A DNA stretch of 64,000 nucleotides from Candidatus Halobonum tyrrellensis G22 (GTDB lineage Archaea; Halobacteriota; Halobacteria; Halobacteriales; Haloferacaceae), in assembly GCF_000495475.1 (NCBI RefSeq), contig NZ_ASGZ01000070.1:62001-126000 (forward strand). Reading direction: 5' to 3'. The notes beneath the pieces are model-generated. The model searched no databases. It was not told the origin of the DNA and was given only the letters and a program-made list of their open reading frames with translations. Of the stretch, positions 17,452 through 54,900 are shown piece by piece (position 1 is the stretch's first letter; every line of letters begins with the position of its first letter). Both the position numbers and the translations under genes were made by a program.

Positions 17452-19538
17452 CTGACGACGCACGACGATCCGTGGAGGACTCGTCGGATCGAGAACTGAC
17501 TCTCGACGAACGGGTCGGCCGCCTCCAAGGTATCAAACAACACTTGCAGGTATTGGATCGAACCGGATTCGACTTCCTGTCGCTTCCGAACATATACGGG
17601 CTCGACCCGGCTGTCCGGAGCCCGTTCGCCATCCCGGAGACGTTCATATCTGAGGAGGTCGGCGGGTCTATCACGATACTCGACTCCGAGGAGGGCGAGA
17701 GCCTTGCACAGGAGAACATCAACCAAATGCTCCAGAACTTCCTCCCGGGCGGATACAAGCGGCGCTGGGGGAGTTTCTATCTCTGGCGTGGAGCGTGGCA
17801 CCACGACACCGAGTTCGGCCATGCGGACGTCGGCCCGATGTTCGAATGGTCGGACTCGACACCGCTGACCGAGATCCTCGGCCCCGTCGAAGACGTCGCG
17901 TATACCGAACTGGAGTTCGACCCCGACGACGTTACCGTCTACACGCCTCGGGCGATGAACGTCGAGCGACTTTCCAATGACGATCCGGACTACGTCTGGG
18001 TAGTGGACAAGGGGATCGTATGGACCGGATCGCCGCCGGGAACCACCCGCGCGCTCTCGTCGGACCCGACGACGAACTACCTCTGGTTCAAACATGCCGT
18101 CGACGATTTCGAGGAGTCGACAACCCCGGTCACGGACAGCAAACTCGTCTCGGGGTATCGGTTCTACGACGACCATCGCTTCATGCGGTGCTACTACGCG
18201 TCGCTGCTCACGCTCTATCCGCGGAAATCTACGCGCGTTGAGTCGGGGATCATGCGATACCAGGAGGAAGGAGACGGGCGGACCGCCTTCATCGGAAGCA
18301 AGGAACGGAGCCAACTGCTCACGTTCGAATTGGAACGTCCGACGCTCCGGGATGCGATCGAGGACGTCCTCGAGTCGGACCAGCATCTCCGACGGGATCT
18401 CCAGTTCGCGTTCCTTCACGCGCTCGTCTGGGAGGAGTTGTTCTTCCAAGAGGAAGCACTCGATCACACCTATCAGGTCCGGCCGCTCGTGGAACACCTC
18501 CTCGGCGTGGACTTCTGGCAGCGAGTCGACCAGGGTAACGACGACGGAGTGTTCCCGCTCTCGGGGTCGAAACTTGTCCGTGCGGTCGAACGGCTCCTCC
18601 CATCGGAAACCAGTACGCGACTTCGCCTCCTCGGCCACGACTCTGCGGAGAACTCTGCGATCTTGGAGATCTTGAATTCGCATACGGAGGAAGTCGCTCG
18701 AATCCTCGCGCTGTGCCGGAACGATGACCTCCTCCTCGATTTCGCCGAGGACGCGGTCGTCCATTCCGCAGAACACGCGCTGTCGGGATGGGCAAACAAA
18801 CTCACCGGCTCCGGGACAGCGTTCGAACTTTGGTACGATGTCAACTTCCAAGCGAACGAGGCCGACTCCGCCCGGATCGCTGTGTACGATCCCATCCAAG
18901 GGGGAGCCGGCATCGCGAAGGAGGTGTCGCGTCGGCTTGACGAGCGCACGGAGATCGGTGTCGACTCCGGCCTCGCCGAACAGGGACGCTGCCACTCCGC
19001 GATGGCGGACAGAGCGACGATTGACCTCCTCGGACAGTACCCCGACGGCTCGCTCTACGACGTTCACCGGAACAACCGACCACAGTTTCGCGAACTCGTC
19101 GAGGGGACGATCAACGGTCTGGTCTCGGATCCGGACGCCTACTCCGTCGAGGACCTCCATTCGCACGTCGATCAGCGCGTACAGTTGCTGTTCGAGACAC
19201 GCGAACTGGCCCGGTTCTACTCGTACATCGCGGCGGAGTACTCGGCGGTCGAATCGGAACTCGGGCGGACTCCTCGCCCGCCCGACCTCGCGCTTCACCT
19301 CGACAGGCACGTGTTCAGAGATCCGTCTATACGTGCGACGTATGAACGGTTCGCGAGCGATAGCGGACGGCGGGACATCGCGGAACTCGGCGAGCGGCTG
19401 GAGGAACTGACGGTGCAGTGCGTTACAGCCTGTCCTGACTGCCTGAAGACCGACGGCGATGTATGCGTCCGAGGGGCGAGCCAACAGGAGGCGACGCTCA
19501 ATCGCCGGCTGCTGACGGAGGTGTTCTCGGGCCGATGA
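17448..19538 (+). CDS. DrmB-like DUF1998 protein
   Basis: The protein has 696 aa. The second half has DUF1998 hallmarks: VVHSAEHALSGWANKLTGSG, then the IAVYDPIQGGAGIAKE loop (YD..GGAG signature), and a terminal zinc cluster CVTACPDCLKTDGDVC near residues 663-678. It carries no helicase motifs, so it should act with the 913-aa helicase immediately upstream, its stop and start overlapping as ATGA. In DISARM the equivalent pair shields or scans DNA. Family assignment is from motif recognition; the specific function is inferred. Confidence 0.82.
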   Translation: MTDDARRSVEDSSDRELTLDERVGRLQGIKQHLQVLDRTGFDFLSLPNIYGLDPAVRSPFAIPETFISEEVGGSITILDSEEGESLAQENINQMLQNFLPGGYKRRWGSFYLWRGAWHHDTEFGHADVGPMFEWSDSTPLTEILGPVEDVAYTELEFDPDDVTVYTPRAMNVERLSNDDPDYVWVVDKGIVWTGSPPGTTRALSSDPTTNYLWFKHAVDDFEESTTPVTDSKLVSGYRFYDDHRFMRCYYASLLTLYPRKSTRVESGIMRYQEEGDGRTAFIGSKERSQLLTFELERPTLRDAIEDVLESDQHLRRDLQFAFLHALVWEELFFQEEALDHTYQVRPLVEHLLGVDFWQRVDQGNDDGVFPLSGSKLVRAVERLLPSETSTRLRLLGHDSAENSAILEILNSHTEEVARILALCRNDDLLLDFAEDAVVHSAEHALSGWANKLTGSGTAFELWYDVNFQANEADSARIAVYDPIQGGAGIAKEVSRRLDERTEIGVDSGLAEQGRCHSAMADRATIDLLGQYPDGSLYDVHRNNRPQFRELVEGTINGLVSDPDAYSVEDLHSHVDQRVQLLFETRELARFYSYIAAEYSAVESELGRTPRPPDLALHLDRHVFRDPSIRATYERFASDSGRRDIAELGERLEELTVQCVTACPDCLKTDGDVCVRGASQQEATLNRRLLTEVFSGR

Positions 19539-22500
19539 TTCATGATATCGCGGACGTCCTCGATCGACCGGAAGCCGAGTTGGGTGGAGAGCTAACCGTT
19601 CGGTGCCGGATCCAGAGCAACCGTATCCCCGGCACGGAGGGGAACGGAATGAAGAGCCTCTACATGGTAGACGACCCCAGGCAGTCGACCGATTCGTCGG
19701 TCGCCCTCTCGTTTTGGAGTTCGTCCCCGACCGTTGAACCGCTCAAGAGCCTGATCGACAAGACCGACGACCCGGTTCTCGACTCCCTCGGCCTCCCGAT
19801 GGAACTTGAAGACGGGACCGGGAAACCGCTTCAGAGGGGAGAGGAAGTCCTCGTCCGGGCCGTTCCGAACCGGTCCGCGGCGAGCGAGGCGGATCTCTAT
19901 CTCAACGTCACCTCCGTGGCGATCCGGGACCCGTCGCAACTCGTCAGCAAGTCCCGACTTCGGACGCAGGATAACTGTCAGCGGGAGAACTACCTCCGCT
20001 ACGTGAAGAACGTCTACTCCGGAGACCGGTATTCGGATCCGCCCCACCATCAGCAGTCCATCCTCCGTGGCGACGCGATCCATCGGATCGCCGAACGCGC
20101 TGTCGAGAACCAACTCGACCGGTTCGAGTCGGATACATGGACGAAGGACAGAATCGAACAGTTCTGCACGCAGGTGCTCGAGGAGGAGTTCGGCTTCCGG
20201 CAGGCCCTGCTCGTGCTCTCCGGCGCGGGACTCTCCGTCAGAGAACACATCGTTGAGACGCTGACGACGCTGTTCACCGATACGGAGTTCCAGTCGCTGG
20301 TGACCGACGCCGACGAACTCGCGACCGAGGAGTTCCTGAACGAGGCGTACGGGTATGCCGGCCGCGTCGACCTCCTCGTCGACGGAACGCCGTACGACAT
20401 CAAATCGACTCGTGACCCGGACGACCAGGCGGTGTGGAAGCATTCGCATCAGGTTCGATTGTACACATTCGCGCTGATCCTCGAGTCGCTGGAGGAGGGG
20501 GAATCGTTGACGGACGCGATCGACGACGCACCTCCGGGCATGCTCATCTACCCGAACACGTCCGACGGTACTGTTCGATTCGAACCCGTCGACCTTGAGC
20601 CGGAGCACGTCGGAGAGTTCTTGGAACTGCGGAACAAGGCCGTCTCCGGAAGCGCTCTTTCCGCGCCGTCGTCGCCATACAACCGCGACTGTGAGGACTG
20701 CCAGTTCGCCGTCGACGAGTGGATCTCCGGCCCCGACGACGCACTCGCGCCGGCGTGCACCTTCCACTGCCAGAACGAACGCCGGTGGCCGTGTTACGAA
20801 CTCGACGGCGGGGAAGTCACGACGGAGTGCTCCCGGTTCGATGACTGCGAACAGCGTCTTCAGTATCGCGACTCCGAGCAGACCGCCTACTACAATCGAC
20901 AGCGAAAGGCGTTCCGAACGGAGAGACGCGCGCGCCGGACGGCGACTCAGGTCCTCGAGCAGTTCGACCGTGAACTCCTCCACGATGCGGGGTTCTTGGT
21001 GCCGTCGATGAACTGTATCGGGGCCACCGCAGCGGGGACTGTATTCCGCTTCGAAAGCGATGTTGTGATCGTTCCAGCCTTCGAACCCGGCGAATCGGTC
21101 ACACTACAGTCGGACGACGGAACCCTGTCCGCGACAGCTACGTACTACGGAGAGGCGGATGGGGCGTTCTTGTTCAAACCGGACTCGTCCGCGCTCACCT
21201 TAGCGGACGTCTTGGGATCCGATGCGTCGTTCGAGGCGCTCTATCGGTTCGCCCCCGAGTCTGTCGATCGGAAGTTCCTCCCGTATCTCGACTTCGCGGA
21301 ACGGCGAGGGATCGAGCCTGGGTTCGCCGACGGTGAGTTCGGGGAAGATGCGGAGACGGACAGGGCGGACGTGTCGGACATCGCCGACTACCTCGACAAG
21401 GAGGCGGTGTTCGTCGATCTCCCGATCCATCGGAACCGCGCTGAGAAATTAGCCGAGTTGGTAGGATCCCTCGTTACGGCGACGTACCCGGCTCCCGACT
21501 CGACTGATGTCGATATACCAGATCCCGCCTCGCGTGTGTTAGTCCTCGGATCGACTCCCAAACTCGTGGAGACGGCGGTCGCTGCCCAACCGACCGGCCC
21601 ACATTACCGGCTCGACGGAACCGGCGGCGGCGACTCCGTGATCGATTCGGACGACAGCTACCACGAGATCCAAACGAAGATCGGCGAGGCCCGGTCGCTC
21701 GTCTCCTCGACGCATGTCGCGATGAGCGACGCTGGACCTGACGGGATCTCGGAGTTCTTCCATAGACTTGCGGAAGGCGACTACAAGGACGCGGACGACC
21801 CGAGTCGACGCGACCACTCGGGGCAATTCTTCGACGCCGTCGTTATCCTCGGCGGGGAACAGATCACCGAACCCGAGTTCCACTTTCTTAGTGACCTCGC
21901 CGACCGCGTAGTTGTCGTCGGTGATACGCGACGCGGCGGGCCGACGATGGTGAGCTCGGAGGCAGCCGACGCGGGACTGGATCGGTCGTACTTCACGCAG
22001 GCGTTCGACCAGTATCAGTCGTTCCCGAGCGAGGAGGCGGTAAGTCTTCAGCTCTCCGGCGAAGCTCCGCCGGCGATCCAGTCGCTCTATCCCGACGGGC
22101 CGTGGGAGGCGATCGACGGTGACGTGACGTTCCTCTCGATCGACGGGGACGAGGAAACGGCGCTTGATGCGGTTGAGTTGACCACGACAGTTCAGGCCGA
22201 ACACGCCGCACGCCGACTGGTCTTCGACGTTACTGATACGCCCGTGAGTCCAATCGAGGCACAGGAACTATTCCAACAGCGGCTCTCCCTTGACGCGACG
22301 AAACTGACTGAGGGATCGGTTGTCCTCATCGACGATATGAGCCTGTACCTCGTCGAGAAGGACGACATCGAGGGTGAGCGAACGAACGACCACGAGGTCG
22401 TGGTCCGAGCGGATGCGGCTGAACTCCCGCAGTTCAACAGGGCACTACTGACCAACTCTATTGCCGAGCAGATCGTCGCACAGGTCGCAGAATCGGGCGA

Positions 22501-22810
22501 TATCGACGTCGTCGTGACGCCGTTCGAAGCACACGCGACGGCGATCAAACGAGAACTCGCGGAGGCCGGTGTCGATGTGCCCGTTCGCCGGCCGGAAGCC
22601 CTCCCCGGAACGTGCACCGGAACCGCGCTCGTGAGTTTCGCCGTGTCGAACGAGTCGAACATCGTTCGCTCCCCGCTCGACTCGCCTACGGTCCTCTACG
22701 AACTCCTATCCGCCGGATGGGACGTCGTCCTCGTCGGAAACAAGTCGACGCTCTCGACGAAGGACTACTTCGCCGAACTCCTCAACACGGCGACGTCGTA
22801 CGAAAGCTGA
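19535..22810 (+). CDS. Cas4-like PD-(D/E)XK nuclease fused to a degenerate SF1 helicase
   Basis: I choose ATG 19535 (ATGA overlap with the preceding stop) over a longer upstream frame, giving 1091 aa. Residues 20-130 look like an OB-type domain. The nuclease shows a Cys in RTQDNCQRENYLRY (C148), H183 (GDAIHR), D279 (GRVDLL), D288 and K290 (YDIK), and QVRLY (306-310). Further cysteines around DCEDCQF and ACTFHC suggest a Cas4-type Fe-S or zinc cluster. The C-terminal half follows SF1 order (VVILGGEQ for motif II, VVVVGDTRRGG for motif III, VVVTPFEAHA, then VLVGNKSTL), but no Walker A is visible and motif II lacks the DE pair. It is probably a nuclease effector with an inactivated helicase scaffold. 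Confidence 0.8.
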   Translation: MIHDIADVLDRPEAELGGELTVRCRIQSNRIPGTEGNGMKSLYMVDDPRQSTDSSVALSFWSSSPTVEPLKSLIDKTDDPVLDSLGLPMELEDGTGKPLQRGEEVLVRAVPNRSAASEADLYLNVTSVAIRDPSQLVSKSRLRTQDNCQRENYLRYVKNVYSGDRYSDPPHHQQSILRGDAIHRIAERAVENQLDRFESDTWTKDRIEQFCTQVLEEEFGFRQALLVLSGAGLSVREHIVETLTTLFTDTEFQSLVTDADELATEEFLNEAYGYAGRVDLLVDGTPYDIKSTRDPDDQAVWKHSHQVRLYTFALILESLEEGESLTDAIDDAPPGMLIYPNTSDGTVRFEPVDLEPEHVGEFLELRNKAVSGSALSAPSSPYNRDCEDCQFAVDEWISGPDDALAPACTFHCQNERRWPCYELDGGEVTTECSRFDDCEQRLQYRDSEQTAYYNRQRKAFRTERRARRTATQVLEQFDRELLHDAGFLVPSMNCIGATAAGTVFRFESDVVIVPAFEPGESVTLQSDDGTLSATATYYGEADGAFLFKPDSSALTLADVLGSDASFEALYRFAPESVDRKFLPYLDFAERRGIEPGFADGEFGEDAETDRADVSDIADYLDKEAVFVDLPIHRNRAEKLAELVGSLVTATYPAPDSTDVDIPDPASRVLVLGSTPKLVETAVAAQPTGPHYRLDGTGGGDSVIDSDDSYHEIQTKIGEARSLVSSTHVAMSDAGPDGISEFFHRLAEGDYKDADDPSRRDHSGQFFDAVVILGGEQITEPEFHFLSDLADRVVVVGDTRRGGPTMVSSEAADAGLDRSYFTQAFDQYQSFPSEEAVSLQLSGEAPPAIQSLYPDGPWEAIDGDVTFLSIDGDEETALDAVELTTTVQAEHAARRLVFDVTDTPVSPIEAQELFQQRLSLDATKLTEGSVVLIDDMSLYLVEKDDIEGERTNDHEVVVRADAAELPQFNRALLTNSIAEQIVAQVAESGDIDVVVTPFEAHATAIKRELAEAGVDVPVRRPEALPGTCTGTALVSFAVSNESNIVRSPLDSPTVLYELLSAGWDVVLVGNKSTLSTKDYFAELLNTATSYES

Positions 22811-24191: not shown

Positions 24192-24641
24192 ATGAGCCGA
24201 TCGCAACTATCCACAACTGATATGGTAAAATGGGATCTTATTCGTGGCCTCATCCCGGATGTTTGGAGTACAAAGAATAAGAGAAATAATGTTAAGTCCC
24301 AACATGTTAACATCCGCAGGAGACTTAAATCTGAAGAACCAGTACAAATAAATTTTAACGAAGAATATGAAGCTAGCCTGGGGATAGCTACAGAGAGTCA
24401 CTATAAGATAAAATCATTAGTTAGAAACTATGGGCACCAAAGAGGGCATGAATATGTGATTCGAGATCATAGCGACAGAGAGGAAATAATAGAGGAGATA
24501 GGAAACTTAATATGGAAAATAAGGATAGCTAATAGTATATCTATCTTGATGTGGCTATTTCTCGCAACTTTTATTGTGTTGGTATTCGGTATAGCTACTT
24601 CTATATCATCAAGTATTATACTTGAATTATTGGGTGCTTGA
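24192..24641 (+). CDS. AT-rich membrane-anchored hypothetical protein
   Basis: The protein has 149 aa from ATG 24192. The soluble N-terminal part (about 110 residues, basic) precedes a C-terminal hydrophobic hairpin (ISILMWLFLATFIVLVFGIA, then a short Ser/Ile/Leu stretch), giving one or two membrane helices. The gene is conspicuously AT-rich, as is the convergent pair that follows, which suggests recent acquisition. Its stop overlaps the 3' end of the opposite-strand AlbA_2 gene by 15 bases. Confidence 0.65.
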   Translation: MSRSQLSTTDMVKWDLIRGLIPDVWSTKNKRNNVKSQHVNIRRRLKSEEPVQINFNEEYEASLGIATESHYKIKSLVRNYGHQRGHEYVIRDHSDREEIIEEIGNLIWKIRIANSISILMWLFLATFIVLVFGIATSISSSIILELLGA

Positions 24642-25124
24642 TTCTAATATGGCCTTTAGGGTAGAAGGAGACATCGGATAAGAGTGCTTTGATTTTCTAT
24701 AGAAAAATTGGCCTTGAACCGCAAAAGGCAACTCCGCATCTGTTTCCGTGTACTTTTTTATGCGACTAACTAGAATAAATTTATTATCGATCTCAACTGC
24801 ATATAGATCATATGATAAGTCTGGTTCTATTTGATCTTCAAATATCTCTGCTATCTCGTCAATACCTTCTTCGGTATCTGTTATTCCCTTTACTTCTCCT
24901 GATTTTCCTACTCCAAATAAAATTACTCCACCGCTTCTGTTACCAATTCCACATGCTTCCCTTGCCAAATCTGCTTCGCTAGGGATAGATGATTCACTAT
25001 ACGTATCGATCTTGCTAGGTGTAGATAGGAAAAACTCTATTGTTGGAGAAATACCGTTGTAAAATATTTCTCTAATATCGGCTTCTTCTAGTCTTTCATC
25101 AATCGAGTCATCGGACCAACTCAT
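24627..25124 (-). CDS. AlbA_2 / Schlafen-type protein
   Basis: The protein has 165 aa. It has the AlbA_2 core: an ESS/EADLAREACGIGNRSGG helix, then VILFGVGKSGEVKGI, and a later FYRKSKHSYPMSP strand. AlbA_2 domains bind nucleic acid and, in Schlafen proteins, cut tRNA; the acidic residues needed for cleavage are not clearly present here. It is the second gene of a two-gene AT-rich operon, its start overlapping the upstream stop by 4 bases. A defence role is plausible but inferred. Confidence 0.72.
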   Translation of the reverse strand: MSWSDDSIDERLEEADIREIFYNGISPTIEFFLSTPSKIDTYSESSIPSEADLAREACGIGNRSGGVILFGVGKSGEVKGITDTEEGIDEIAEIFEDQIEPDLSYDLYAVEIDNKFILVSRIKKYTETDAELPFAVQGQFFYRKSKHSYPMSPSTLKAILESSTQ

Positions 25125-27664: not shown

Positions 27665-27701
27665 GCGAGACAGCGTCTTCCTCGAAACTCCGGTGAAATC
27701 G

Positions 27702-28622
27702 ATGGCGACGACAGAGAGAGACATCTACACGACGACGGTCGACGAAGACGTACAGCCCACCACCAACCAGTGTCCCGAGTGCGATGGCCGGGTCACCACC
27801 AACGCGGCCGAAAGTGTCTGTGACGACTGCGGGCTCGTACTCGACGACCAGCGGATCGACCACGGCCCCGAGTGGCACTCGTTCGACGCGGAGAAACGCG
27901 AGCGCACAGGCGCACCGCTCACGGCGGCGCGGCACGACCGCGGGCTCTCGACGGAAATTGGCCACAGTGTCGACGCGAACGGCAACACGCTCTCGGGACG
28001 GAAGCGCCGCCAACTCTCCCGGCTCCGCCGGGAGCACAAGCGTAGCCAGCGACAATCGACGGCCGAACAGAACCTCGCACACGGACTCGGGGAGGTCCGT
28101 CGAATCGTGAGTGCACTCGGTCTGCCCGAGTCGCTCCGTGATCAGGCCTGCCAGCTGTTCCGGAGCGCCCAGTCAGAGGATCTGCTCGTCGGCCGGTCGA
28201 TCGAGGCGATGGCGGCCGCGAGCGTCTACGGCGCCTGTCGCTGTAACGGCATCTCACGCACGCTCGATGGCGTGAGTGAGCCGGCACGGGTCGAGCAGGC
28301 GAGCGTGACGAACGCCTACAAGACGCTGAATCGAGACCTCGGCCTGCCGGCGCAGCCCGTCGTACCGAGCGATCATATCGTCCGGATTGCGTCGGCGGTC
28401 GAGGCGTGTGATCAGATCCGTCAGCGGGCACGGAAGCTGGCGGAGCAGGCGGAGGCCGAGCAGCGGACGGCAGGTGTGAACCCGTCGGGCTTCGCAGCGG
28501 CGTGTCTCTACGTCGCCGGCCGAGAGCGTGGTCGCCGGGTCACACAGGTGGCGATCGCGGAGGTGGCGAGCGTGACGCCGGCGACGATTCGGAAACACAG
28601 CGAGACGCTGACTGAGCTGTAG
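27702..28622 (+). CDS. tfb: transcription initiation factor IIB
   Basis: The protein has 306 aa. I choose ATG 27702 over an in-frame GTG 9 bases upstream. The N-terminal zinc ribbon is CPECDGRV...CDDCG (about residues 19-40). The B-finger/linker contains SFDAEKRERTGAPLTAARHD. Two cyclin-like repeats follow (RIVSALGLPESLRDQACQL and CLYVAGRERGRRVTQVAIA). TFB joins TBP at the BRE/TATA element and recruits RNA polymerase. Haloarchaea carry several TFBs, and those on plasmids or islands can direct particular promoters. Confidence 0.93.
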   Translation: MATTERDIYTTTVDEDVQPTTNQCPECDGRVTTNAAESVCDDCGLVLDDQRIDHGPEWHSFDAEKRERTGAPLTAARHDRGLSTEIGHSVDANGNTLSGRKRRQLSRLRREHKRSQRQSTAEQNLAHGLGEVRRIVSALGLPESLRDQACQLFRSAQSEDLLVGRSIEAMAAASVYGACRCNGISRTLDGVSEPARVEQASVTNAYKTLNRDLGLPAQPVVPSDHIVRIASAVEACDQIRQRARKLAEQAEAEQRTAGVNPSGFAAACLYVAGRERGRRVTQVAIAEVASVTPATIRKHSETLTEL

Positions 28623-31816: not shown

Positions 31817-33175
31817 CTACCTTATCACGTCAGGTTCAACTAGATGGTCAATTTGTTCGTAGTCCTCAAAGAGTGGTCTGTGTGCTTCACTGTGGGTTGG
31901 GTCGTCTGTCTCCTCGAATTGCTCAGGGGAAGGGGATTGCCGCATTGCTGCCAGTTGGTCACGGAGCTTCCCACTCGTTGCTCGCACAAGTTCTCTGTCT
32001 GGCCACGAATGTATCGGTGGAGCACCGAGATCCTCTGCTTTCTGTTGAACCCAATTTAGCTGCTTGAGCGCGTACTTTACCCACTCTTCTACATCTTTCA
32101 GTTTCCGGAATTCATCAGCCTGCTCTTCTAACCCCGCCTCCTCCAGAGCAGTAATCATCAGCCCGAAATTCTCTCCTCGTGGATTGATTGGCTCATGGAA
32201 TACCACCTGTGCACGCAGAGCCATGAATCGCGTAAGCAGTCGGTGGAGCCCATGTTCGTCCATTGTAGGGTACGTTGGCGACATCGACACATAGACCGGC
32301 ACACCTTCTAATTGTAGCATATCAAGTGCTTCCCACCGAGTAAGAGGAGGTGGAGCTCCTGGTTCAAGTGCTCCCACCAATTCCTCATTGAACGAGGGAA
32401 TCGAAGATCCAACCGTGATCAAATCTCCTGCATCCTTGAATAAGTCAACATCCTTGACAACAATTGAACTACGAGTGAGAACTCTAACTGGTATATCACG
32501 GAAAAGTAGCTCGTGAATCACACCACGAGTGATTTGCCCTGCTCGGCGGTCTTGGTATGGGTCGGTACCGCTGGACAGCATAACAACGCCTTGACCGCGT
32601 TCCGTGTCTCGAAGGTCTTCCCGGGTTGTCTGCTGTAGTTCTTCGTGGAGTCGCTCTGGGAGATCGTCGCGGTAGAGGAGGTAGCTTCCCCACTCTTCCT
32701 GCAGTTCATCGACATCTGCTTGTTCACTCAGCATCTCAGCACGCCCTTCATAGCCTGGAGTCGTTGGCACGTAGCAGAATTTACAACCGTGTCTACAACC
32801 GGTAGCGACGTTGACTACGTAGTCACAAAGGCTCTTTTCATACAAGTGAGACTCACTAATGGTCGCCTGAGTCGGATCAGTATTGACCCGAATACCCGCT
32901 TCCTTTTCTGCATCGGATGTGACTGCGCATTCCCAGCAGAGGAGATTTCCACGGGGATCTGCGGCGAATCGACCTCGGATCTCTGTTGAACAATTCGCGC
33001 ATGGAATACCTAAGTTAGAGAGATTTATTCGTTCTTTGTTCCGTTGCTCAGCATTCCGGAGTTGATCGAGAGTCGGATAGTCCGAGAATTCCTCCAAGAC
33101 AGTACCGGTTTCGTCCTCAAGGAAGTATGCGCGCTTGAACTCGTCTTCCGCCTCCCATTGGGATTCCAAGCGCAT
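31817..33175 (-). CDS. radical-SAM protein (TcmP partner), copy 1
   Basis: The protein has 452 aa. A zinc ribbon CANC...CWEC lies at residues 59-83. The radical-SAM cluster motif C127-x3-C131-x2-C134 sits in ATGCRHGCKFCYVP, with an extra cysteine at C117. The family is the three-Cys-motif group (Gp37/Gp68-like, related to SplB-type enzymes) that pairs with TcmP. Radical-SAM chemistry on a nucleic-acid or protein substrate is expected; the substrate is unknown. It is the last gene of a leftward three-gene operon, 62 bp after a close paralogue, and looks like a tandem duplication that has diverged. Confidence 0.85.
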   Translation of the reverse strand: MRLESQWEAEDEFKRAYFLEDETGTVLEEFSDYPTLDQLRNAEQRNKERINLSNLGIPCANCSTEIRGRFAADPRGNLLCWECAVTSDAEKEAGIRVNTDPTQATISESHLYEKSLCDYVVNVATGCRHGCKFCYVPTTPGYEGRAEMLSEQADVDELQEEWGSYLLYRDDLPERLHEELQQTTREDLRDTERGQGVVMLSSGTDPYQDRRAGQITRGVIHELLFRDIPVRVLTRSSIVVKDVDLFKDAGDLITVGSSIPSFNEELVGALEPGAPPPLTRWEALDMLQLEGVPVYVSMSPTYPTMDEHGLHRLLTRFMALRAQVVFHEPINPRGENFGLMITALEEAGLEEQADEFRKLKDVEEWVKYALKQLNWVQQKAEDLGAPPIHSWPDRELVRATSGKLRDQLAAMRQSPSPEQFEETDDPTHSEAHRPLFEDYEQIDHLVEPDVIR

Positions 33176-33237
33176 CTCTACGCAGACCTACGATCTCCAA
33201 CCCCAAAATTCTGAGTAAAGCGTACTGAAAGTGGAAT

Positions 33238-34539
33238 CTACGAAGGAAGTGACGGTGTAGCGATGCGTTCGGGAGAGACTGCATCTCTTTGCCGGAGGAG
33301 TTCTTGTGCCTTCTTCTCCCCTACCGACTTGATCACTTGCTTGTCAGGCCACACATGAACGTCAACACCGTGCTTTTCGCCTAACTCCTCTGCCCACTCC
33401 ATCTGTTTGAGAGAATACTCAACCCAATATTCCCGGTCGTTACTGATTCGTTCCAACTCCTTTGCGAGCGTTGTTTCTCCGGCTTCACGAGCTGCGTCAA
33501 TCGTCATCTGAAAATTCCCACCCCGGGGATTAATTGGTTCGTGGAAGACGACTTCGGCTTTCAAGTCAGCGAACTGGCCTAGTAGCTGATCGAAGTCGTC
33601 ACGTGTTTGTGTTGGATACGTCGGTGACATCGACACATATACTGGAATTCCCGCCTCACTCAGCGTCCGAAGGGCTCGAAGTCGTGCTTGTGGTGAGGGC
33701 GCGCCTGGTTCAATTGCGCGGACCTGTCCCTCATCAAGGCAAGGGATCGATGAACCAACACGGATTAGTTTCCCGACTTGATTCTGGCTCTGTTCAACGG
33801 CCCATTCGAAAACATCGAGATCTCGAACAACAGCAGGACTCCGAGTAAGAATGCGAACAGGGAAACCATGGTCAATGAGTTCAACAACGCATCCACGAGT
33901 AATCTGCGCCGTCCGACGATCCTGATAGCAGTCAGTCCCACTTGACAGCATTACAACGCCTCTACCGCGAGCCGTCTGTTTCCATTTTTGTTTCCGATCC
34001 AGCTTCCGCCCCAAGCGTTCAGGGAGATCGTCGCGGTAGAGAAGGTAGCTTCCCCACTCCTGCTGACCATCATCAACCGCTGCTTGTTCTGCCAGCATTT
34101 CCTGTCTCGCAGTAACGTTAGGTGTGCTCGGGACATAACAGAACTTACAGCCATGTGAGCAGCCGGTTGCGACGTTAATGACGTAATCACACAGGCTCTT
34201 GTGGTACAACCCGGATTCACCGAGTACGACCTTGGCAGGGTCAGTGTTGTGCCGAATATTGTTCTGTTCCGCCTCTGTTGCTTGCATAGCACACTCCCAG
34301 CAGAGCAGTTGACCCTCCATTGTCGCGCTAAATCGTTCTTCTAACGGTGAGTCACACTGAGAACAGTCTAGACCTGCTTCAAAGATGTCGAGACGGTCTT
34401 CAGGTGTGCCTGTAGTTCGACTGGCTTTGCGCAACTGATTCAGAGAGGTGTTTGAAAGTTCAGAAATCCTCTGTCCATCATGTTTAACAACAAATCTATT
34501 CTCGCTGTTTTGGACGGAAAATGAGGTACGTTCAGTCAT
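33238..34539 (-). CDS. radical-SAM protein (TcmP partner), copy 2
   Basis: The protein has 433 aa using ATG 34537-34539; a TTG 9 bases upstream is the alternative. It has the same plan as its neighbour: zinc ribbon CSQC...CWEC, then C127-x3-C131-x2-C134 within ATGCSHGCKFCYVP and an upstream Cys in KSLCDYV. Conserved blocks shared with copy 1 include EEWGSYLLYRDDLPERL-like and VVFHEPINPRG sequences. The start overlaps the tcmP stop by 8 bases, so the two are translationally coupled. Two non-identical radical-SAM subunits beside one TcmP is unusual. Confidence 0.85.
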   Translation of the reverse strand: MTERTSFSVQNSENRFVVKHDGQRISELSNTSLNQLRKASRTTGTPEDRLDIFEAGLDCSQCDSPLEERFSATMEGQLLCWECAMQATEAEQNNIRHNTDPAKVVLGESGLYHKSLCDYVINVATGCSHGCKFCYVPSTPNVTARQEMLAEQAAVDDGQQEWGSYLLYRDDLPERLGRKLDRKQKWKQTARGRGVVMLSSGTDCYQDRRTAQITRGCVVELIDHGFPVRILTRSPAVVRDLDVFEWAVEQSQNQVGKLIRVGSSIPCLDEGQVRAIEPGAPSPQARLRALRTLSEAGIPVYVSMSPTYPTQTRDDFDQLLGQFADLKAEVVFHEPINPRGGNFQMTIDAAREAGETTLAKELERISNDREYWVEYSLKQMEWAEELGEKHGVDVHVWPDKQVIKSVGEKKAQELLRQRDAVSPERIATPSLPS

Positions 34540-35542
34540 GGAATTCAACCAACTTTGACTGGGGATCGTCTTCGTCTTGTTTGGGAAGGAACGATTCCAT
34601 GGTCATCTGGTCGCCACGCAGGATCTGGAGCATATCCTCGACGTCCGCGCCATCGACAGCTTCAACGAACCTGTTAATATACTCAATAGCGTTGATGTAG
34701 TCACTCCCACCGCGCGTTTTTCTAGTCGCGTAGATCATGTCATACTGGTAGTTTTTCGTCCCACTATCTATGTTTGTGACGACTTGTTCTGTCTTCCCTA
34801 AACCACTCAATCGCGTCGTGTAGGCCTCCAGCAACTCCTCTTTCCCGTTTGCTGACCTCCACCGGTCTCCCCCGTAGTAGTCCACCATCGCGTTCTCGCT
34901 CCCTTTGTGACCAGACGCACGGAGGACGTTTGAGGTCGGGAAGTTAATTAGGTAGTCACCGGTGGTACTGTCTTCGAGGTCTTCAAGCCCGCCCCAGTTG
35001 AGATTTAACCCCTGGTTGTCGATGAACGTGAGATGGTTGAAATTGGCTTTCCCGTCTCGCTTGGCGACCCTCCACATGTTACGGGTGACTTGCTGTAGTT
35101 TCTTGTTAGCGTCGCCAACGTAGACTTCATAGCCGCATTCAGGAGGGGTAATCTGTAGGTCAGAACCATTGAACGCTACGTCTAAACGCTTCTCCAGGGC
35201 AGCCGCGTTCTCTTTATCCTGCTCAATGAAGTACATCTTGGTGAACGGCTCAGCGGCGTTTTTCGCAGCGAGGAGGGGAGACCCGAGGAAACTCTCATCT
35301 GCGTCACCATAGACAGAGACTCCTGAACCAGCGAGCGCGTCAATGTAGAACCAGTCGTTGAAGTACTCAGAGATCACCGTGGTGTACATGTTCACGGTGG
35401 CTACATGGACAATTAGTTTGAGCGCGGACCACGTTCCGAATTCGTTGTAGACATCTGGTTCCACGGACCGGATGTCTTCGGCGTGTCTAGTGAGTGTAGG
35501 AACGCGCTCTTTAACGCGTTCTCTCGGCGAAAGCCCGGCCAT
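34532..35542 (-). CDS. tcmP: three-Cys-motif partner protein TcmP
   Basis: The start is set at ATG 35540-35542 (MAGLSPRERVKERVPTL), 336 aa. An upstream extension is open but rich in unlikely sequence and lies beyond the promoter. The core resembles the TcmP family: a Rossmann-like DWFYIDALAGSGVS strand-loop, then a GSPLLAA block, FIEQDKENAAALEKRL and HLTFIDNQGLNL. The fold suggests a methyltransferase-like nucleotide-binding protein. TcmP genes are known to neighbour three-Cys radical-SAM genes, exactly as here, but the reaction is not established. It is the first gene of the operon. Confidence 0.82.
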   Translation of the reverse strand: MAGLSPRERVKERVPTLTRHAEDIRSVEPDVYNEFGTWSALKLIVHVATVNMYTTVISEYFNDWFYIDALAGSGVSVYGDADESFLGSPLLAAKNAAEPFTKMYFIEQDKENAAALEKRLDVAFNGSDLQITPPECGYEVYVGDANKKLQQVTRNMWRVAKRDGKANFNHLTFIDNQGLNLNWGGLEDLEDSTTGDYLINFPTSNVLRASGHKGSENAMVDYYGGDRWRSANGKEELLEAYTTRLSGLGKTEQVVTNIDSGTKNYQYDMIYATRKTRGGSDYINAIEYINRFVEAVDGADVEDMLQILRGDQMTMESFLPKQDEDDPQSKLVEFHD

Positions 35543-35575: not shown

Positions 35576-35676
35576 TTTGCCTCGGACATATAAAGACATC
35601 CAGCCTTCGTAAAATAGAGAGTAACCAATCGAGGGGCTCCGTTTAGAGAACATCGTATTCGGGGTCCATGGCTGTC

Positions 35677-43084: not shown

Positions 43085-46000
43085 CTAAGGTTGTCCTGCA
43101 GAGAGTGTGTATATTGACAGCGACGTCGTTTTGCTTCCCGCTGGGAGGACTGCAGTATCAAGACAGAACTCTTGGAGTGGCCCCCGCCAGTGAAGCGTTT
43201 TAGTGTCATCATCAGTAATTCCGAGTGCGTTGTATAGTCGCTTCCAGATCAGCGTCTGATCGAATTCGTCAGCATCTGCTGGTGTTACCCGGAATACCGA
43301 TTCGCTAGCGATGATCACGAGTTTCTTCTTCATCCGCGACATGGCGACATTGAGTCGGTTCGGATTCAGGAGAAACTCAGACTCCCCACGGACGTAGTCA
43401 GGGTCACTTGCAGTCGCGGAGACAAACATTACGTCGCGTTCACCGCCTTGAAAACGCTCCACAGTATCAGCAGTTACCCTATCACCAATCGATTCACGGA
43501 GCCGTCCTTTCTGTGCGTTGTGCGGCGTAACTACTCCAATGTCTCCCGCCGTCTCATTGAGTGCTTCTAGCATTGCCTGAATCAGTGCCACCTCAGTCCG
43601 ATTTGCATCCTGGCTCTCGGCTTCATCGTGGATGATAAGCGTGACAGGGCACTCAGGCGCCATCGCTGCGTCAACACCATCGGTAACAGGATCAGTAGAC
43701 GCGAGGATATCCTCCTGTTCGGACCGCAGTCGGATGCCGTCATCAGTATACACGAGGTCAGTGAGAAGATCTGCGACTAGTTTGTGTAGCCGATACGTCT
43801 TATCCAGCCGAGTGATTGGGATAGCATCGTCCACGTTCGGTGAAGCCGGAATGGCGTATTCGACTTCGTCAAGGTCACCTCGGAGGAAACGCACGAAGTC
43901 CAGTACAGACATAAATGGGGCATTCTCTTGGATCGTACGGCGATCTTCTCCATCCCAGTTGTGTTGCTGAACAGGTTCCATCTGCCTGTGATCTCCAATT
44001 AACAGCGTCTGAGCTCCGTCGCGGAGATACGCGCTCGCGAGGAGTGTCTGTGGAAGATTGAGCATGCTCGCTTCATCGATGGCTAGTAGATCGATAAACG
44101 ATTCACCGGCTTCCATCAGATCCTCAGCACTGTCAGCGCCAAACACCGGGCCAGCAGTCTTATCGACGACTCCCCGAAGTGATGTAGTCGTCGTGAAGAG
44201 CACTACGTGCTTGCGATCACCACTCGCACTTTCGGAGACGTGAGGAGTCAGCAGCTCAGAGACGCGGTCGAGATCATCGTCGTCGTAATAACTCCGGTAT
44301 TCTACGTTGGGAAGTGCGAGTTCGTCTCGGTCTCCAGAGAGCACACGCACGAACGCTGTTTCATCGAGATCTCCCGTCGCATCGTGGAATGCCGTCCATC
44401 GATTCGCGACGTCTTCGAGTGCTTCGTCAACCGCCGTGTGTGACGGCGCGGTTACGACTGTGACAAGCCGTCGGTCATCTTGTTCGGCGGCCCAGAGACG
44501 AGCAAGTACAGCGGGTGCAAGCGTGTAGCTTGTCTTTCCCGTTCCGGGTGGTCCCTGGAGGACCGATACCGTATGGTCTATCTCACGGACGAATTGCTTC
44601 TGCCGGCCGAGTGGGGCTTGACCTGTCGCATCCTCGTAACGATCGAGAAACGCGTCTATCGTATCGGGTGCATAGAGTTGCTGTTCAAATTGCTCTGACC
44701 GTTTATCGGTAAATGCAGCATCCAATTGCTGATAAAGGGCGTTTGAATCAGTGTGTTCTAAGGCTGCATACGCACGCTGGCTCGGGTAGCTGTCGGCGTA
44801 CGGATCAAGGATGAAGAGATCACCCTCTTCAATGAGTGTGTCGTACTCACCGGCATCGGCTGGGTTTATCTCCGCATCGCAGTGCCATTCTATGAAGCGT
44901 TCATGACCGTATCCACCAATTTTCGAGGCAGTAATGACGATTTGATGGTGTTCCCGATCGAACGTCTGTACGGTGGCCTTCGCCGAATGCTCGATGTGTT
45001 CTGGTGAGGACACATCTACGTGTTCGAGCCCACCGTTTGCACTGCGTTGGAGCTTCGTCATTACACGCCAACTCCCGGATCCGCTTCCCTCATTGCCTTT
45101 GATCCGGCAGCTATCGAGTACGTGGTCAGGATCCTCGAAGAGATCACCGTACATCAGTTGACCCTCAACTTGGTAATCCCACTGACCGATGTCGCTAACG
45201 TTCGTCACCCGGAATATCGTTGAGTCGCCTGATTGCACCCGCTGACGTGGCGGGTCTAAGTAGTGGTCAAGACATTCTTGCCGATGGGTAGCATATTCGA
45301 GGTCAAGGTACTCCTGACAAGCCTCGCCCAAATTCGTGTCCGGTAATCCGAACGCCGGGAGATTCGGGATCGAAATCGGCCGCTTGCTCATTTGGAAGTT
45401 TTTGTAGCCGATACCCCGCTCAGTATGCTCTAACGCCTCACACAGTTTCAACGCAAGTGCCGTTACATCCGCTTGCTGGATTCGTTCACTTCTTGGTCCA
45501 TCCCGGAACCGATACGTCGAGAGAGTATTCGCATCCTGCTCGGATGCATCTTCTAAGAGCTCGTCGAGTTTGCCTTGCGCCCCCCAGATATACTCTAATG
45601 GGATCTGGTTCCCGTATCGGTTGTGAAGCGGATACCAGCCGTCTGGACTCTCGCCTTCGCCGCCAAGTAGGAGACGAATCGAATCATCCTCGGAGACATA
45701 TGGCCGCCATCGTTCGAATAGTCCGGTTCGGAATACCGTTCGAAGATCAAGTTGTCCATCACCTCGCTCAACGACCCAGTCGTCATTGGTCCAGTTCCAT
45801 TTGTCGTGCTTCTCATCACCAGCGTATGCGCTGAGTTGTTCGACGGTTTGGACTAGACCTGTCCCAGGATACCGAAGCGCCAGTCGTTTGGTGATGTCGT
45901 CGTGGACGATCGAGACCATCCGTTGATCGATCCCCTCCCGCAATCCGAGTAGATCGCGGACGGCCGGAGATCCAAACGTACTAGGTTGTCGTTGAACCGA

Positions 46001-47533
46001 CTCCATAAGCGCATCTCGCTCATGTTGAGAGTAGAAGTAGAGGTGCACTCGTGCCTCATCATCGTATCCTGCTTCGTGGGCCGCAGTATGGAGGGATTCG
46101 AATAGCGTCTCGAAGAACCGCTCTAATAACTCGCTTTCCTCCTCTCGACTCGCTGTCTGGCCAGTTTCTAGACGCTGTGACAGCTCAACTACCTCGCGCG
46201 GTTCGATCTTGTTTCCATTGATACGACCGGCCAGCAATGCCAATCTGTCCCGCACATGGTCCTCCTGCACGTAGAGGTAAACCCGGAGAAGCGACCCCCG
46301 TTCGTAGGGCACGTCCAACGCAGGATGCGGATCGTCGTCCGGCAATGAACCATTTCCACTCCCCTTCAGGAACTGCACATCATCGAATCGGTCGTACGCC
46401 GGATCGAGTGCCTCCTGCAACATCTGAGCTCGTTGCACGATATCCTCTAGTCGATCACCAAGCGTTCCCTCCGTCTCAAGTGCTCGAACGAGCCGTTCGT
46501 TCTCAACGCGTAGCCCATCGTAATCGATAGGACGTGTATCTGGGTCAGCCTCGTACAGTTCGCTGAGTTCGTGAATGCGGTCGATCCCTTGGGCGTTGAG
46601 CCGTTGCTGATCGCCCTGTGTCAGGTTCAGTAGTGCGGGATCTCCCGACTCAATTGCCTTCGTGAAACAGACACCATTGTATGGACAGCCGTCGCACTTC
46701 CGTTCTAGTCGATAGCCGACCTCCTCAAAGGATTGCTGAGCGAGGTCATGAAGTTCACCTTCCCGTTTGAGTAAACGCTTGACCTCCGCAGTTCGTGACT
46801 CCCGGTCAATGTAATCGACTTCGTCGAGCGCCGTCGTTTGAAGATCTGCTTCTCGATTAATAACCGCTGCTTGGGGTTCGTGCTCAAATCCGAGGTCGGT
46901 GACAACCTCATCGATGAGGAGGCTGTATATTGTCGCCTGTATCTGATGGGCTGTTTTGTCTTTCCAAGCAGTCTTCACTTCTAGAACACGCGACCGGACT
47001 CCTCCGTCGATCGGTTCTAGAGTAATGAGATCAGCTATGCCGGTTATATCCCAAACACCGATCTGCCCCGTGATTGGCAATTGGAAGAGGGCTATCAGGT
47101 CATCATCGGGTCCGAGCGCTGCTGCTTCCTCAACAAGCCGCTCAAACTGAGTCCGCACCGACTGCTTCCATCGGTCACCTGGTGTTTCACTTTCGCCTCC
47201 GTCAGGGAGTGTAACTGTCGGCGGCCATGTTTCGTCGAATGTAACCGGATCGCTGTCTTTGTCCTTATCGCCGGCGACTGTTGAAGCACGACTGGCAAGG
47301 ACTTCTAACTGGGTATCCTCAAATGAGAGGCCGATCTCGGCGAAGAGTCCACTATGAGTATTTCGGTCGTGCCAATTCCGTTTGTCCACAATCGCCTGGT
47401 CGAAATATTTCAGTCGGAAAAAGCGCGAACAACCAGAGTAGTTGATGTACTGGCCGATACCGCTCGGAGTGAGCGAGACGGATGGCCGTGTCCCCTCTGT
47501 CACCATTTTGTTCACTTTCAGGTCAAATGACAT
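43085..47533 (-). CDS. Cas4-like nuclease fused to an intact SF1 helicase
   Basis: The protein has 1482 aa from ATG 47531-47533. The N-terminal nuclease has a Cas4-type cysteine set (NYSGCSRFF near residue 35, CDGCPYNGVC near 283) and a PD-(D/E)XK core with GIADLITL and VLEVKTAWKD (about 165-195). The C-terminal helicase has QGPPGTGKTS (about 990-1000), IDEASML (about 1149), LIGDHRQMEP (about 1176), VVTPHNAQKG, RFQGGERDVMFVSAT and NRLNVAMSRMKK (about 1390). The order is that of Dna2/Upf1-like nuclease-helicases. It probably unwinds and cuts invading or damaged DNA. Divergent from the 177-aa gene at 47634. Confidence 0.88.
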   Translation of the reverse strand: MSFDLKVNKMVTEGTRPSVSLTPSGIGQYINYSGCSRFFRLKYFDQAIVDKRNWHDRNTHSGLFAEIGLSFEDTQLEVLASRASTVAGDKDKDSDPVTFDETWPPTVTLPDGGESETPGDRWKQSVRTQFERLVEEAAALGPDDDLIALFQLPITGQIGVWDITGIADLITLEPIDGGVRSRVLEVKTAWKDKTAHQIQATIYSLLIDEVVTDLGFEHEPQAAVINREADLQTTALDEVDYIDRESRTAEVKRLLKREGELHDLAQQSFEEVGYRLERKCDGCPYNGVCFTKAIESGDPALLNLTQGDQQRLNAQGIDRIHELSELYEADPDTRPIDYDGLRVENERLVRALETEGTLGDRLEDIVQRAQMLQEALDPAYDRFDDVQFLKGSGNGSLPDDDPHPALDVPYERGSLLRVYLYVQEDHVRDRLALLAGRINGNKIEPREVVELSQRLETGQTASREEESELLERFFETLFESLHTAAHEAGYDDEARVHLYFYSQHERDALMESVQRQPSTFGSPAVRDLLGLREGIDQRMVSIVHDDITKRLALRYPGTGLVQTVEQLSAYAGDEKHDKWNWTNDDWVVERGDGQLDLRTVFRTGLFERWRPYVSEDDSIRLLLGGEGESPDGWYPLHNRYGNQIPLEYIWGAQGKLDELLEDASEQDANTLSTYRFRDGPRSERIQQADVTALALKLCEALEHTERGIGYKNFQMSKRPISIPNLPAFGLPDTNLGEACQEYLDLEYATHRQECLDHYLDPPRQRVQSGDSTIFRVTNVSDIGQWDYQVEGQLMYGDLFEDPDHVLDSCRIKGNEGSGSGSWRVMTKLQRSANGGLEHVDVSSPEHIEHSAKATVQTFDREHHQIVITASKIGGYGHERFIEWHCDAEINPADAGEYDTLIEEGDLFILDPYADSYPSQRAYAALEHTDSNALYQQLDAAFTDKRSEQFEQQLYAPDTIDAFLDRYEDATGQAPLGRQKQFVREIDHTVSVLQGPPGTGKTSYTLAPAVLARLWAAEQDDRRLVTVVTAPSHTAVDEALEDVANRWTAFHDATGDLDETAFVRVLSGDRDELALPNVEYRSYYDDDDLDRVSELLTPHVSESASGDRKHVVLFTTTTSLRGVVDKTAGPVFGADSAEDLMEAGESFIDLLAIDEASMLNLPQTLLASAYLRDGAQTLLIGDHRQMEPVQQHNWDGEDRRTIQENAPFMSVLDFVRFLRGDLDEVEYAIPASPNVDDAIPITRLDKTYRLHKLVADLLTDLVYTDDGIRLRSEQEDILASTDPVTDGVDAAMAPECPVTLIIHDEAESQDANRTEVALIQAMLEALNETAGDIGVVTPHNAQKGRLRESIGDRVTADTVERFQGGERDVMFVSATASDPDYVRGESEFLLNPNRLNVAMSRMKKKLVIIASESVFRVTPADADEFDQTLIWKRLYNALGITDDDTKTLHWRGPLQEFCLDTAVLPAGSKTTSLSIYTLSAGQP

Positions 47534-51926: not shown

Positions 51927-54900
51927 GTGAGGTTCTACGTTCCGGAATGGGATGACGCAGTTGACGCCCATTACGACTTCGAGCATGACGAACTCTCTAC
52001 CCTTAGTCGTAAGAAACGCGAATTAGATTACGTCTGGGATATCTTCGATCGCGAGACGACCCCCATCGATGGTGTCCTCATTTCACGTGAGAAGGTAGAG
52101 GAGACACGCCGAAAACGGGAGCGTCTGTTAGAGCATGGGGTCTACGATGACCCAGTTTTGTCGATTCCCGAATGGCTTCCTACTATCAGTGACTGTGGCG
52201 CGTGGGGCTACAAGTCGCTCCCGTTTCCGCCGTATGGCAACGCCGAGATGCTCGACTTCTACGAGCAACTTGACGTCTCCGTGGGGGTCACGATCGACCA
52301 TCTTGTCTTAGGCTCGGGGAAGGACAAAGGTCGGCTGTACCTCGACAAGCGAGCCTTCCACAACGACTTCCAGCGCTCTGACATTCCCGACAAGATCACC
52401 GAATCAGTGGAGGTGATGGACGACGAGTGGAAAGACCGATGGCCTGCTTACACTGCTGAGCACGAGCCTTCCCTCTGGACGGTTGTCGGCAAGGCGATCG
52501 ACCTTCAGGTAGACGACGAACTCCGCACGGTCAGGCCGAACACGACGACGAAAATTGAGCTCCAGGAGGAGCGACCTGTCGAGCTAAGAATAGACTATGA
52601 GCGACAGGTTCAATTCCGAATTCATACTGGTGACCAAGTCCATGTAGACAGGGAATCAGCCGAGTCGATCGATATCTCCCCTGGTTCGGTTACAACGGTA
52701 ACACTCGACCCTGACGAGGTCATCGAATTCGTTTCGGATACAGATGCATCGGTTCGGCTTGAGCCGGAGTCCGATTCCTGCATCACCCTCTCTCCGGGAT
52801 ACGAGGTTGGGATAGAGGTTGGAGGTAAGAAAACAGCGGAGTTGGAGGTCGGTACGGACTCTCCAGCGACGCTTGCTCTCACTGCAGACACGCCTGTTCA
52901 GCTCCAGTCCCCCAAGAGTCAGACGACAACGCTTGATCCTGGTGTGACAACAGAGGTGTCTCTCGAAGGGGATTCCATAGTAACGTTTCACGCAGAGGGT
53001 GATGCAGAGATTACAATTGGAACGGACTCACGCGTGGACCTCCAAACCAACGCTGAGCCATACGTCCAATCCCTCCAGGCCGATGATTTCGAGGGAAATG
53101 TAGATCAGATCCTTGAGCGTCTTACTGACGACCCACGGGCGGTCTACCGTCAAGACGACAAGCAATTCCGCTATGATTTGACGCTTCGGAACGCGAAGGA
53201 GATGTACGCCCTGTACGAAGACAGCGACTATCCATTCCGACTCATGGTGGCTGTTCAGGGGTGGACAGCCGAATCATACGTCAATGCGACTGAGCGCGTT
53301 CTGCAACTTGGCTATGACTACGTTGGCATTGGAGGAGTTGCCGGCAGTCCGATCCATGAGGTACGGAAGATCGTCAAGGAGATCGGAAAGACGATAGGGA
53401 GGTTCGAGCGACGCCATGGGACTCGCGTTGATCCACACGTATTCGGGTTCGCGAAATCAGATGCGTTTGAAACAATCGGACGGTCAGGCGTAGCGAGTTT
53501 CGATAGTGCGAGCATGCTGCGTTCGGCATGGACTGGTGACGGCAATTATCGACTGAGTGCGGATGAGCGGTATGACGCGATCCGGGTCCGCTATCCGAAA
53601 ACCGGTGCAGATCTTTCTGATGCCGTAGAGACGGCCCTTCGAGGTCGAGAACTTCTCGAAGCGCTTCGGGCGTACGACGCACGCGAATCGATTCCAGCTG
53701 CCCTCCGAGAGTGGGAAGCGACTGCAAACAAGATCCTCCCCGCAACAGTAGAGTATCTCCAAGAGCACCGGCACGATGAGAAGTTCAACGAGAGTACGCT
53801 GCGTGACGTCGAAGACGCGTTTCGAGAGGACTTCGAATACGCACGAAAGCTGCGGGCCTATTTCAGCAAAGAGCTTCGAGGCGAACTCGTCAGGAACCTC
53901 AGAGAGGACAGTACTGCCGAGCCTCTTCCGTTCGACCACTACACAGATCTCCTTGGAACCGCCGCCGAAGAATTCACACGGTTCCCCCAGATGGAAGCGA
54001 TTCTAGAATGCGAAGCGAAGAAAAAGAACGGAATGGACCGCTATCAGCAGTTTTGGTTCATGCTCCAGGATTATGCGATCTGGAGCGGCGACGAAGACCT
54101 CCTTGACGCGTATCAGAAGACGGTCAAAATACGACCCTGGGAACGATGCGAGTGTCCAATCTGTGATACGCATGGAGTGGAGGTGTGCATCTTCCGGGGG
54201 AATGACCGAAACCGTCGGCGTGGATTCCACAATACGCGTAAGTTCTACGACGAATTCGATGAGGCCCTCCCGAAGACACTAGTGGCTATGCGCGGATCGG
54301 TCTCGTTCAAGGACTACGATTCTGTAGAAGCATATCTCAAACACGAAGCCCCTGAGTTCTGGAATGCGGTTCACGACCTCCCAGTTACCGAGGTAGGAGT
54401 TTTTGATGCGAACGGAGTTTACGAGTGGGCATCAGATACACCGGAATCGATCTCCTTTGCTCCGGGAGAGATGGCGGAGACCCTCAGCCAGTATCTCTCT
54501 CGCTATCAGCAGTTCTATCTATACGACCCAGCAGACGGCGTTGATGATCAGGTTATCAATGAACTCAGCAGGTGTGAGACAACTACGTTCACACAGCCTG
54601 AGGAGCTCCGCACTTCAGCTCTGCAAGGGTTTGGCGAGAATTATTCCATCGGGGCGGATTTCCTTCCTCACTCACCAACCTTCGAAACGGAGGACGGACT
54701 CGATATACTCATCATCGACCAATGCTCCGGCTCAAAATACACTCCTGAGGGGACTACCGTCTTCGAAGAAGACGAACTGAACGCGTACACCAAGGAAGAA
54801 CTGCTTGACCAAGATAACGCGAGGGGAGTCGAAGCGGCAGATCTCTATACAGGCCGTCAACAAGAGGCGATTTCCCAAGCGGTACGAACGCTTCGAGCAG

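Follow-up and report, generated by a model that had tools for sequence, protein, structure and literature searches.

A TcmP gene with two radical SAM partners in a haloarchaeal defense island: a recurrent module with an exchangeable TcmP

Introduction

TcmP, the three-Cys-motif partner protein, is annotated in many genomes without a function, and in the open literature covered we found it in gene lists only. The closest described setting is bacterial, where TcmP is paired with a DUF5131/Gp37-Gp68 protein and the pair is included in PADLOC as the candidate defense systems PDC-M30 and PDC-M41; in each of seven bacterial plasmids that we checked, the neighbor of TcmP was of this DUF5131 type. In Sinorhizobium meliloti, tcmP (SMa2243) is listed beside the phage-defense gene hna (SMa2245) (PMC12445080), and in Pseudomonas aeruginosa 68.8% of 32 PDC-M30 carriers were phage-resistant (PMC10855318), an uncontrolled correlation that is not used as support in this work. 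Here we describe a different arrangement in the haloarchaeon Candidatus Halobonum tyrrellensis G22. Within a stretch of 64,000 nucleotides (positions 62,001 to 126,000 of contig NZ_ASGZ01000070.1, hereafter the window), one tcmP gene is followed by two genes for radical S-adenosylmethionine (SAM) enzymes, designated rSAM-B and rSAM-A.

With respect to the bacterial pairs, the haloarchaeal trio shares the TcmP superfamily, the two-part design in which TcmP is combined with a Cys-motif enzyme, a location on mobile elements and a TcmP that is far more variable than its partner (in the bacterial pairs, 15-38% identity for TcmP and 49-72% for DUF5131). The window TcmP passes the TIGR04474 model (89.6 bits against a cut-off of 53) and matches the A component of the candidate systems (PDC-M41A, E = 1.9e-16). 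The B component is another matter, as neither rSAM matches PDC-M30B, PDC-M41B or PF07505 at E <= 1, whereas genuine DUF5131 proteins match these models at approximately 1e-100. A direct comparison of DUF5131 with this rSAM (hhalign probability 14%, E 0.002) points to very distant relatives at most. DUF5131 is thus replaced by a larger enzyme resembling spore photoproduct lyase (SPL), and haloarchaea add a second rSAM. The bacterial pairs also show a correlation between DUF5131 and TcmP identities (rho 0.55), and one Rhodococcus plasmid carries two TcmP genes beside a single DUF5131. A first-pass annotation of the window had described TcmP as a companion of three-Cys-motif radical SAM proteins. 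This is correct for the haloarchaeal loci, where TcmP always lies beside an rSAM and CX3CX2C proteins adjoin it in the window and in 20 further haloarchaeal genomes, but the usual partner is DUF5131. In the window module, TcmP has a partner other than the canonical one, and the module varies a type of system that has so far been predicted only.

A recurrent three-gene module

The tcmP (34532..35542, with its ATG at 35542; 336 residues), rSAM-B (33238..34539, with a best-read start at ATG 34539; 433 residues) and rSAM-A (31817..33175; 452 residues) genes are intact and consecutive on the minus strand. At its stop, tcmP overlaps the start of rSAM-B (ATGACTGA), an arrangement expected of an operon, and 62 bases separate rSAM-B from rSAM-A. 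A TATA-like box on the same strand (TCTTTATATG, 35587..35596) may serve as the promoter: its TTTATA lies 52 nucleotides 5' of the tcmP ATG, and there are only 11 such boxes on both strands of the window. The gene coordinates given in the first-pass annotation hold, and its reading of an operon with a TATA box fits these features. The block has a GC content of 51.5%, compared with 56.9% for the window.

Searching a sample of 292 Halobacteria genomes with the TIGR04474 profile recovered TcmP in 21 (7%), every one of which carries full-length rSAM relatives (two in 19 genomes, one in 2), with the genes adjacent in the retrieved loci. This bears out the suggestion that the genes travel together. 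Full-length rSAMs lacking a TcmP were confined to two further genomes, and six others contained rSAM fragments only. Profile and motif searches found no TcmP near the lone rSAMs of genomes G173 and G164, the one motif match near G173 having the look of chance. Genera with the module, or with its form that has one rSAM, include Haladaptatus, Halorubrum, Halobaculum, Haloarcula, Natrialba and Halopiger. Gene order and strand differ between loci: A- B+ T- (A, B and T denoting rSAM-A, rSAM-B and TcmP) in nine loci, A- B+ T+ in six, the window's own order T+ B+ A+ in three, and others besides. In cyanobacteria, approximately 31 loci combine TcmP with one rSAM, and the two genes share a strand in 14 of 31. 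The trio is a recurrent mobile module and not a one-off arrangement.

As a separate observation on viruses, bicaudaviruses encode a lone rSAM sharing approximately 30% identity with the short B type described below (Acidianus two-tailed virus, ATV; NC_007409), and no TcmP was present in the stretch of that genome examined. TcmP itself was found in only two phages, both of Synechococcus, at 26% identity.

TcmP is exchanged independently of a constant rSAM pair

A comparison of related loci, collected using the rSAM alignment, shows that TcmP is the part exchanged independently of the rSAMs. In a Mantel test on pairwise identities across the 21 loci with all three genes, rSAM-A and rSAM-B were strongly correlated (rho 0.76, p 0.0005), and TcmP was correlated with neither rSAM-B (-0.05) nor rSAM-A (-0.09). 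Among locus pairs with at least 80% identity in rSAM-B and at least 75% in rSAM-A, TcmP identity fell below 40% in 55 of 63, and rSAMs that are approximately 90% identical coexist with TcmPs that are approximately 25% identical. Haloarcula-type loci with rSAMs at this level of identity include L065, L067, L077 and L080. Within one genus, the DNA of the B+A block shows 84-89% identity over 2.5 kb, and the homology ends where the two genes do; the flanks are unrelated, and the accompanying TcmPs come from different deep clades and stand in either orientation. The same pattern extends to cyanobacteria, where two Pseudanabaena loci (L139 and L140) have rSAMs of 94% identity next to TcmPs of 26% identity, with TcmP open frames of 420 and 282 residues.

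The two rSAMs, by comparison, follow a pairing rule. Loci with two rSAMs always contain exactly one A and one B-type enzyme, and single-rSAM loci contain the short B form only. In a maximum-likelihood tree of 50 rSAMs, the A sequences split from the rest with support of 100/100. When verrucomicrobial, viral and cyanobacterial relatives were used to root the tree, the haloarchaeal enzymes resolved into a short B clade without a zinc ribbon and a ribbon clade (83/90) that contains the window's rSAM-B together with all A sequences. Because each two-rSAM locus holds one A and one B-type enzyme, each within a clade of its own, the window's rSAMs are best regarded as old paralogues that have been kept together. 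A recent or locus-specific tandem duplication, considered as an origin for the pair, was rejected since each copy groups with counterparts from other loci. The description of two tandem, diverged paralogues in the first-pass annotation is accordingly right as to divergence (49% identity between rSAM-A and rSAM-B) and wrong insofar as it implies duplication at this locus. We did not find TcmP swapping or the A+B pairing rule in the literature covered, which left out most subscription journals and preprint servers.

At one further locus (L081, G059:C2), tcmP lies in two pieces approximately 0.9 kb apart and both rSAMs remain open, so that the rSAM pair may outlive its TcmP.

Predicted folds and active-site residues

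The structure model of the window TcmP (predicted local distance difference test score, pLDDT, 86.6) has a predicted RlmJ/Trm1-like methyltransferase fold. In a PDB fold search, members of the RlmJ family occupied ranks 1-9 and 11-15, that is, 14 of the top 15 (E down to 3e-8). Trm1 appeared among the further RlmJ matches after the top nine, followed by other RNA and small-molecule methyltransferases. Sequence matches to solved relatives were weak; the assignment was decided by the fold search.

The E. coli RlmJ enzyme, a 23S rRNA m6A2030 methyltransferase, contacts SAM through S100, E118 and D164, and its activity requires K18 and D164 (PMC3814359). TcmP shows likeness to RlmJ and Trm1 at the positions of motif I, GSP, the acidic residue and the catalytic Asp. 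Its SAM-binding-like motif I, DALAGSG (35321..35341, minus strand), includes D68, G72 and G74, which are invariant in 38 of 38 sequences, as are K42, G87, S88, L116 and D175. A GSP motif (35273..35284, minus strand) coincides with that of RlmJ, whose S100 contacts SAM (PMC3814359), as does an acidic residue with RlmJ E118, and D175, in the motif IV region FIDNQG (35009..35026, minus strand), aligns with the catalytic D164. The DPPY of RlmJ motif IV is not kept, however: the TcmP family mostly has D-[PNQE]-x-G, with DPFG in most members and DNQG in the window's clade. K42, often found in a similar K-H context, falls five columns away from RlmJ Lys18 in the joint alignment. RlmJ also differs in being a solitary housekeeping enzyme.

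Both rSAMs belong to the radical SAM superfamily (PF04055; 47.6 and 51.8 bits against 29.5, with E = 2.8e-12 for rSAM-A and E = 1.4e-13 for rSAM-B). The cluster motif C-X9-CX3CX2C is intact in each (residues 117-134; 34138..34191 in rSAM-B and 32774..32827 in rSAM-A, minus strand). The extra Cys that precedes CX3CX2C is not a chance feature: 33 of 36 relatives keep it, and the other three have Ser. As modeled, rSAM-B (pLDDT 92.3) looks like an SPL-type enzyme. MgmA, a protein glutamine methylase, was its best match in the PDB fold search and SPL the second, with MiaB, SkfB and SuiB also among the matches, and SPL is the best PDB match by sequence (E = 0.003). The likeness to SPL lies in the radical SAM barrel and the context of the cluster motif; the extra upstream Cys aligns with an Ala in SPL. 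No TcmP partner is known for SPL.

Membership in named rSAM families was evaluated and rejected in each case. Despite the fold match, scores for the SPL family PF20903 were 16-16.7 bits against a gathering score of 27. The best sequence-family matches of both rSAMs are PA0069, Rv2578c and TIGR04470, and these lie far under the curated cut-offs (103/360, 86/430 and 59/410 bits, respectively). For TIGR04470, the radical SAM mobile pair protein B, the two enzymes scored 42.9 and 59.3 bits against a cut-off of 410. The radical SAM mobile pair likewise consists of two linked rSAMs.

Defense surroundings

The trio had been placed between defense modules, and defense genes indeed lie on both sides of it in the window. 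These comprise YprA/DpdJ/DruE-like helicases (1750-7344 and 14710-17451), a PD-(D/E)XK protein (19463-22810), a Mokosh-like helicase-nuclease (43085-47533), DpdA/TGT-like genes (51927-55403, with a DpdC-like stretch, and 55797-56831), a BrxC/D-like ATPase (57699-58865) and a GmrSD-type restriction enzyme (58871-60610). The flanking helicase, PD-(D/E)XK and DpdA/TGT-like genes resemble BRIGADE or a Dpd-type 7-deazaguanine DNA modification system, the likeness residing in neighboring window loci with TGT/DpdA-like and YprA-like helicase genes; BRIGADE is reported only from halophilic archaea (PMC12458937). TcmP and the rSAMs stand apart from both systems: none of the three matches a Dpd model of PADLOC, and the passages on BRIGADE that were consulted do not name them as components (PMC12458937). 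The island also contains a Schlafen AlbA_2 gene (24627-25124) and, from a reading of the translation, apparently a TFIIB-like protein with a zinc ribbon (27693-28622).

Across 19 loci, with PADLOC models at E <= 1e-10 and control genes from the same replicons, 150 neighbor genes matched 195 models compared with 61 for 150 control genes, figures that count matched models and not independent genes or loci and thus show an enrichment but not its size. Many of the control matches were to TnpB-like Cas12f models, and those of the neighbors include BrxA/B/C, Cas3d/Cas1d, type IIG and GmrSD-like genes. The neighborhoods of TcmP are enriched in defense genes, and TcmP pairs are not limited to core metabolic loci.

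Possible functions of the module

Taken together, the methyltransferase fold, the retained catalytic Asp, the kinship of the rSAMs with a lesion-reversing enzyme and the defense setting lead us to favor nucleic-acid modification by a constant rSAM pair and an exchangeable TcmP, with a role in conflict, although we hold this combined reading tentatively and at slightly less than even confidence. Of the antiviral or nucleic-acid-modifying chemistry originally suggested for the locus, nucleic-acid modification is the part that fits both predicted folds. In such a scheme, a constant SPL-like engine of rSAM-B and rSAM-A would pair with interchangeable RlmJ/Trm1-like TcmPs. TcmP would recognize a particular DNA or structured-RNA target and flip a base, which it would probably methylate or prime, and the rSAMs would act on the same base by radical chemistry to yield an unusual modification. 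Exchanging TcmP could then redirect the system during conflict with viruses or with other mobile elements.

Several points weigh against this proposal. The TM-scores of TcmP with RlmJ are moderate (0.42-0.57) and its motif IV is degenerate, for which reasons TcmP may not methylate. Support for RlmJ homology at the sequence level is weak: the solved structure RlmJ 2oo3 is matched at E = 0.16, and a profile alignment with the E. coli enzyme covered motif I alone. The three-gene module contains no nuclease or obvious effector, and no phenotype or modified nucleoside is known for it. Several loci lack a recognizable defense neighbor, and the defense enrichment is subject to the counting of models noted above. 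Finally, rapid divergence of TcmP could contribute to the low identities beside replacement; we favor replacement because TcmP switches between subfamilies of different length and between orientations.

Among the alternatives, counter-defense is unlikely but deserves consideration, as the module could modify the DNA of its own mobile element against host restriction, with a TcmP swap changing the sequence recognized. TcmP modules do occur on plasmids and plasmid-size contigs, 34 of 51 plasmid records with bacterial or archaeal TcmP are mobilizable or conjugative plasmids, the module has no nuclease, and rSAM relatives are found in viruses such as ATV. Several haloarchaeal copies, however, reside on chromosome-sized contigs (L066-L069, L076, L081), and their neighbors include host defense systems. 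A role in RNA maintenance, in which TcmP and the rSAMs would modify or repair tRNA or rRNA and protect, for example, against anticodon nucleases or toxins that target ribosomes, seems to us quite unlikely. The rRNA and tRNA methyltransferases RlmJ and Trm1 are the closest folds of TcmP and MiaB is among the rSAM fold matches, but the patchy distribution (7% of Halobacteria) excludes a core role, and a single conserved RNA target is difficult to square with an RNA-methyltransferase part that has been swapped repeatedly.

The variable and constant parts of the module, its mobile distribution and the resemblance of the rSAM to SPL, a DNA-lesion-reversing enzyme, would also suit an addiction pair that stabilizes mobile DNA, in which TcmP adds a harmful mark, the lyase-like rSAM removes it, and disturbance of the rSAM by infection leads to toxicity. 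The interrupted tcmP of L081 beside open rSAMs fits as well. Such a pair is nonetheless improbable: antidotes normally co-vary with their toxins, which TcmP and the rSAMs do not, and an eraser needs no two active-looking rSAMs. We consider it just as improbable that the rSAMs modify TcmP or another protein, with TcmP then acting alone. The top fold match of rSAM-B is a protein-modifying enzyme (MgmA) and the maturases SkfB and SuiB match too, yet outside the SAM-site motifs no short peptide is conserved across the TcmP subfamilies, and a common modification site is therefore not apparent.

If nucleic-acid modification is correct, the module would represent a route of defense or counter-defense by radical chemistry on nucleic acid, and TcmP can now be approached through a testable idea, that of a targeting subunit joined to a radical SAM engine whose place may be taken by DUF5131 or by an SPL-like rSAM. 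In its broadest form, this idea would extend to modular, retargetable hypermodification, with a fixed rSAM engine accepting structurally different methyltransferase-like targeting subunits by one-gene exchange, not only in archaea and cyanobacteria but also, where DUF5131 is the engine, in many bacteria and their plasmids; so general a scheme we regard as doubtful. Locus pairs that differ in TcmP but have almost identical rSAMs provide a natural experiment in the search for the target.

Zinc ribbons and truncated rSAM-A copies

Both window rSAMs carry the zinc ribbon noted in the first-pass annotation, in the form CX2C-X17-CX2C at residues 59-83 (34291..34365 in rSAM-B and 32927..33001 in rSAM-A, minus strand). 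Of the three rSAM lineages in haloarchaea, only two have the ribbon, and the cyanobacterial enzymes lack it; a single gain in haloarchaea is probable.

In a group of mostly Haloarcula-like loci (L080 and L082-L094), we observed approximately 20 truncated copies of rSAM-A, nearly all of which retain the 3' end and most of which are open. They sometimes form a same-strand series 3' of an intact A gene, as in L080, or stand alone, as with four copies inside 11 kb of L082; several break near codon 291-293. No comparable fragments of B or TcmP were seen. The fragments may be displaced ends that remained behind as the module was replaced repeatedly. CRISPR-like arrays (clustered regularly interspaced short palindromic repeats) with nearly the same repeat, GTTNCAGACGGACCCTTGNGCGGTTGAAG, were also present near modules at L080 (approximately 16900-17100, reverse complement) and L065 (1247-2850), and one of the two abuts an rSAM-A fragment.

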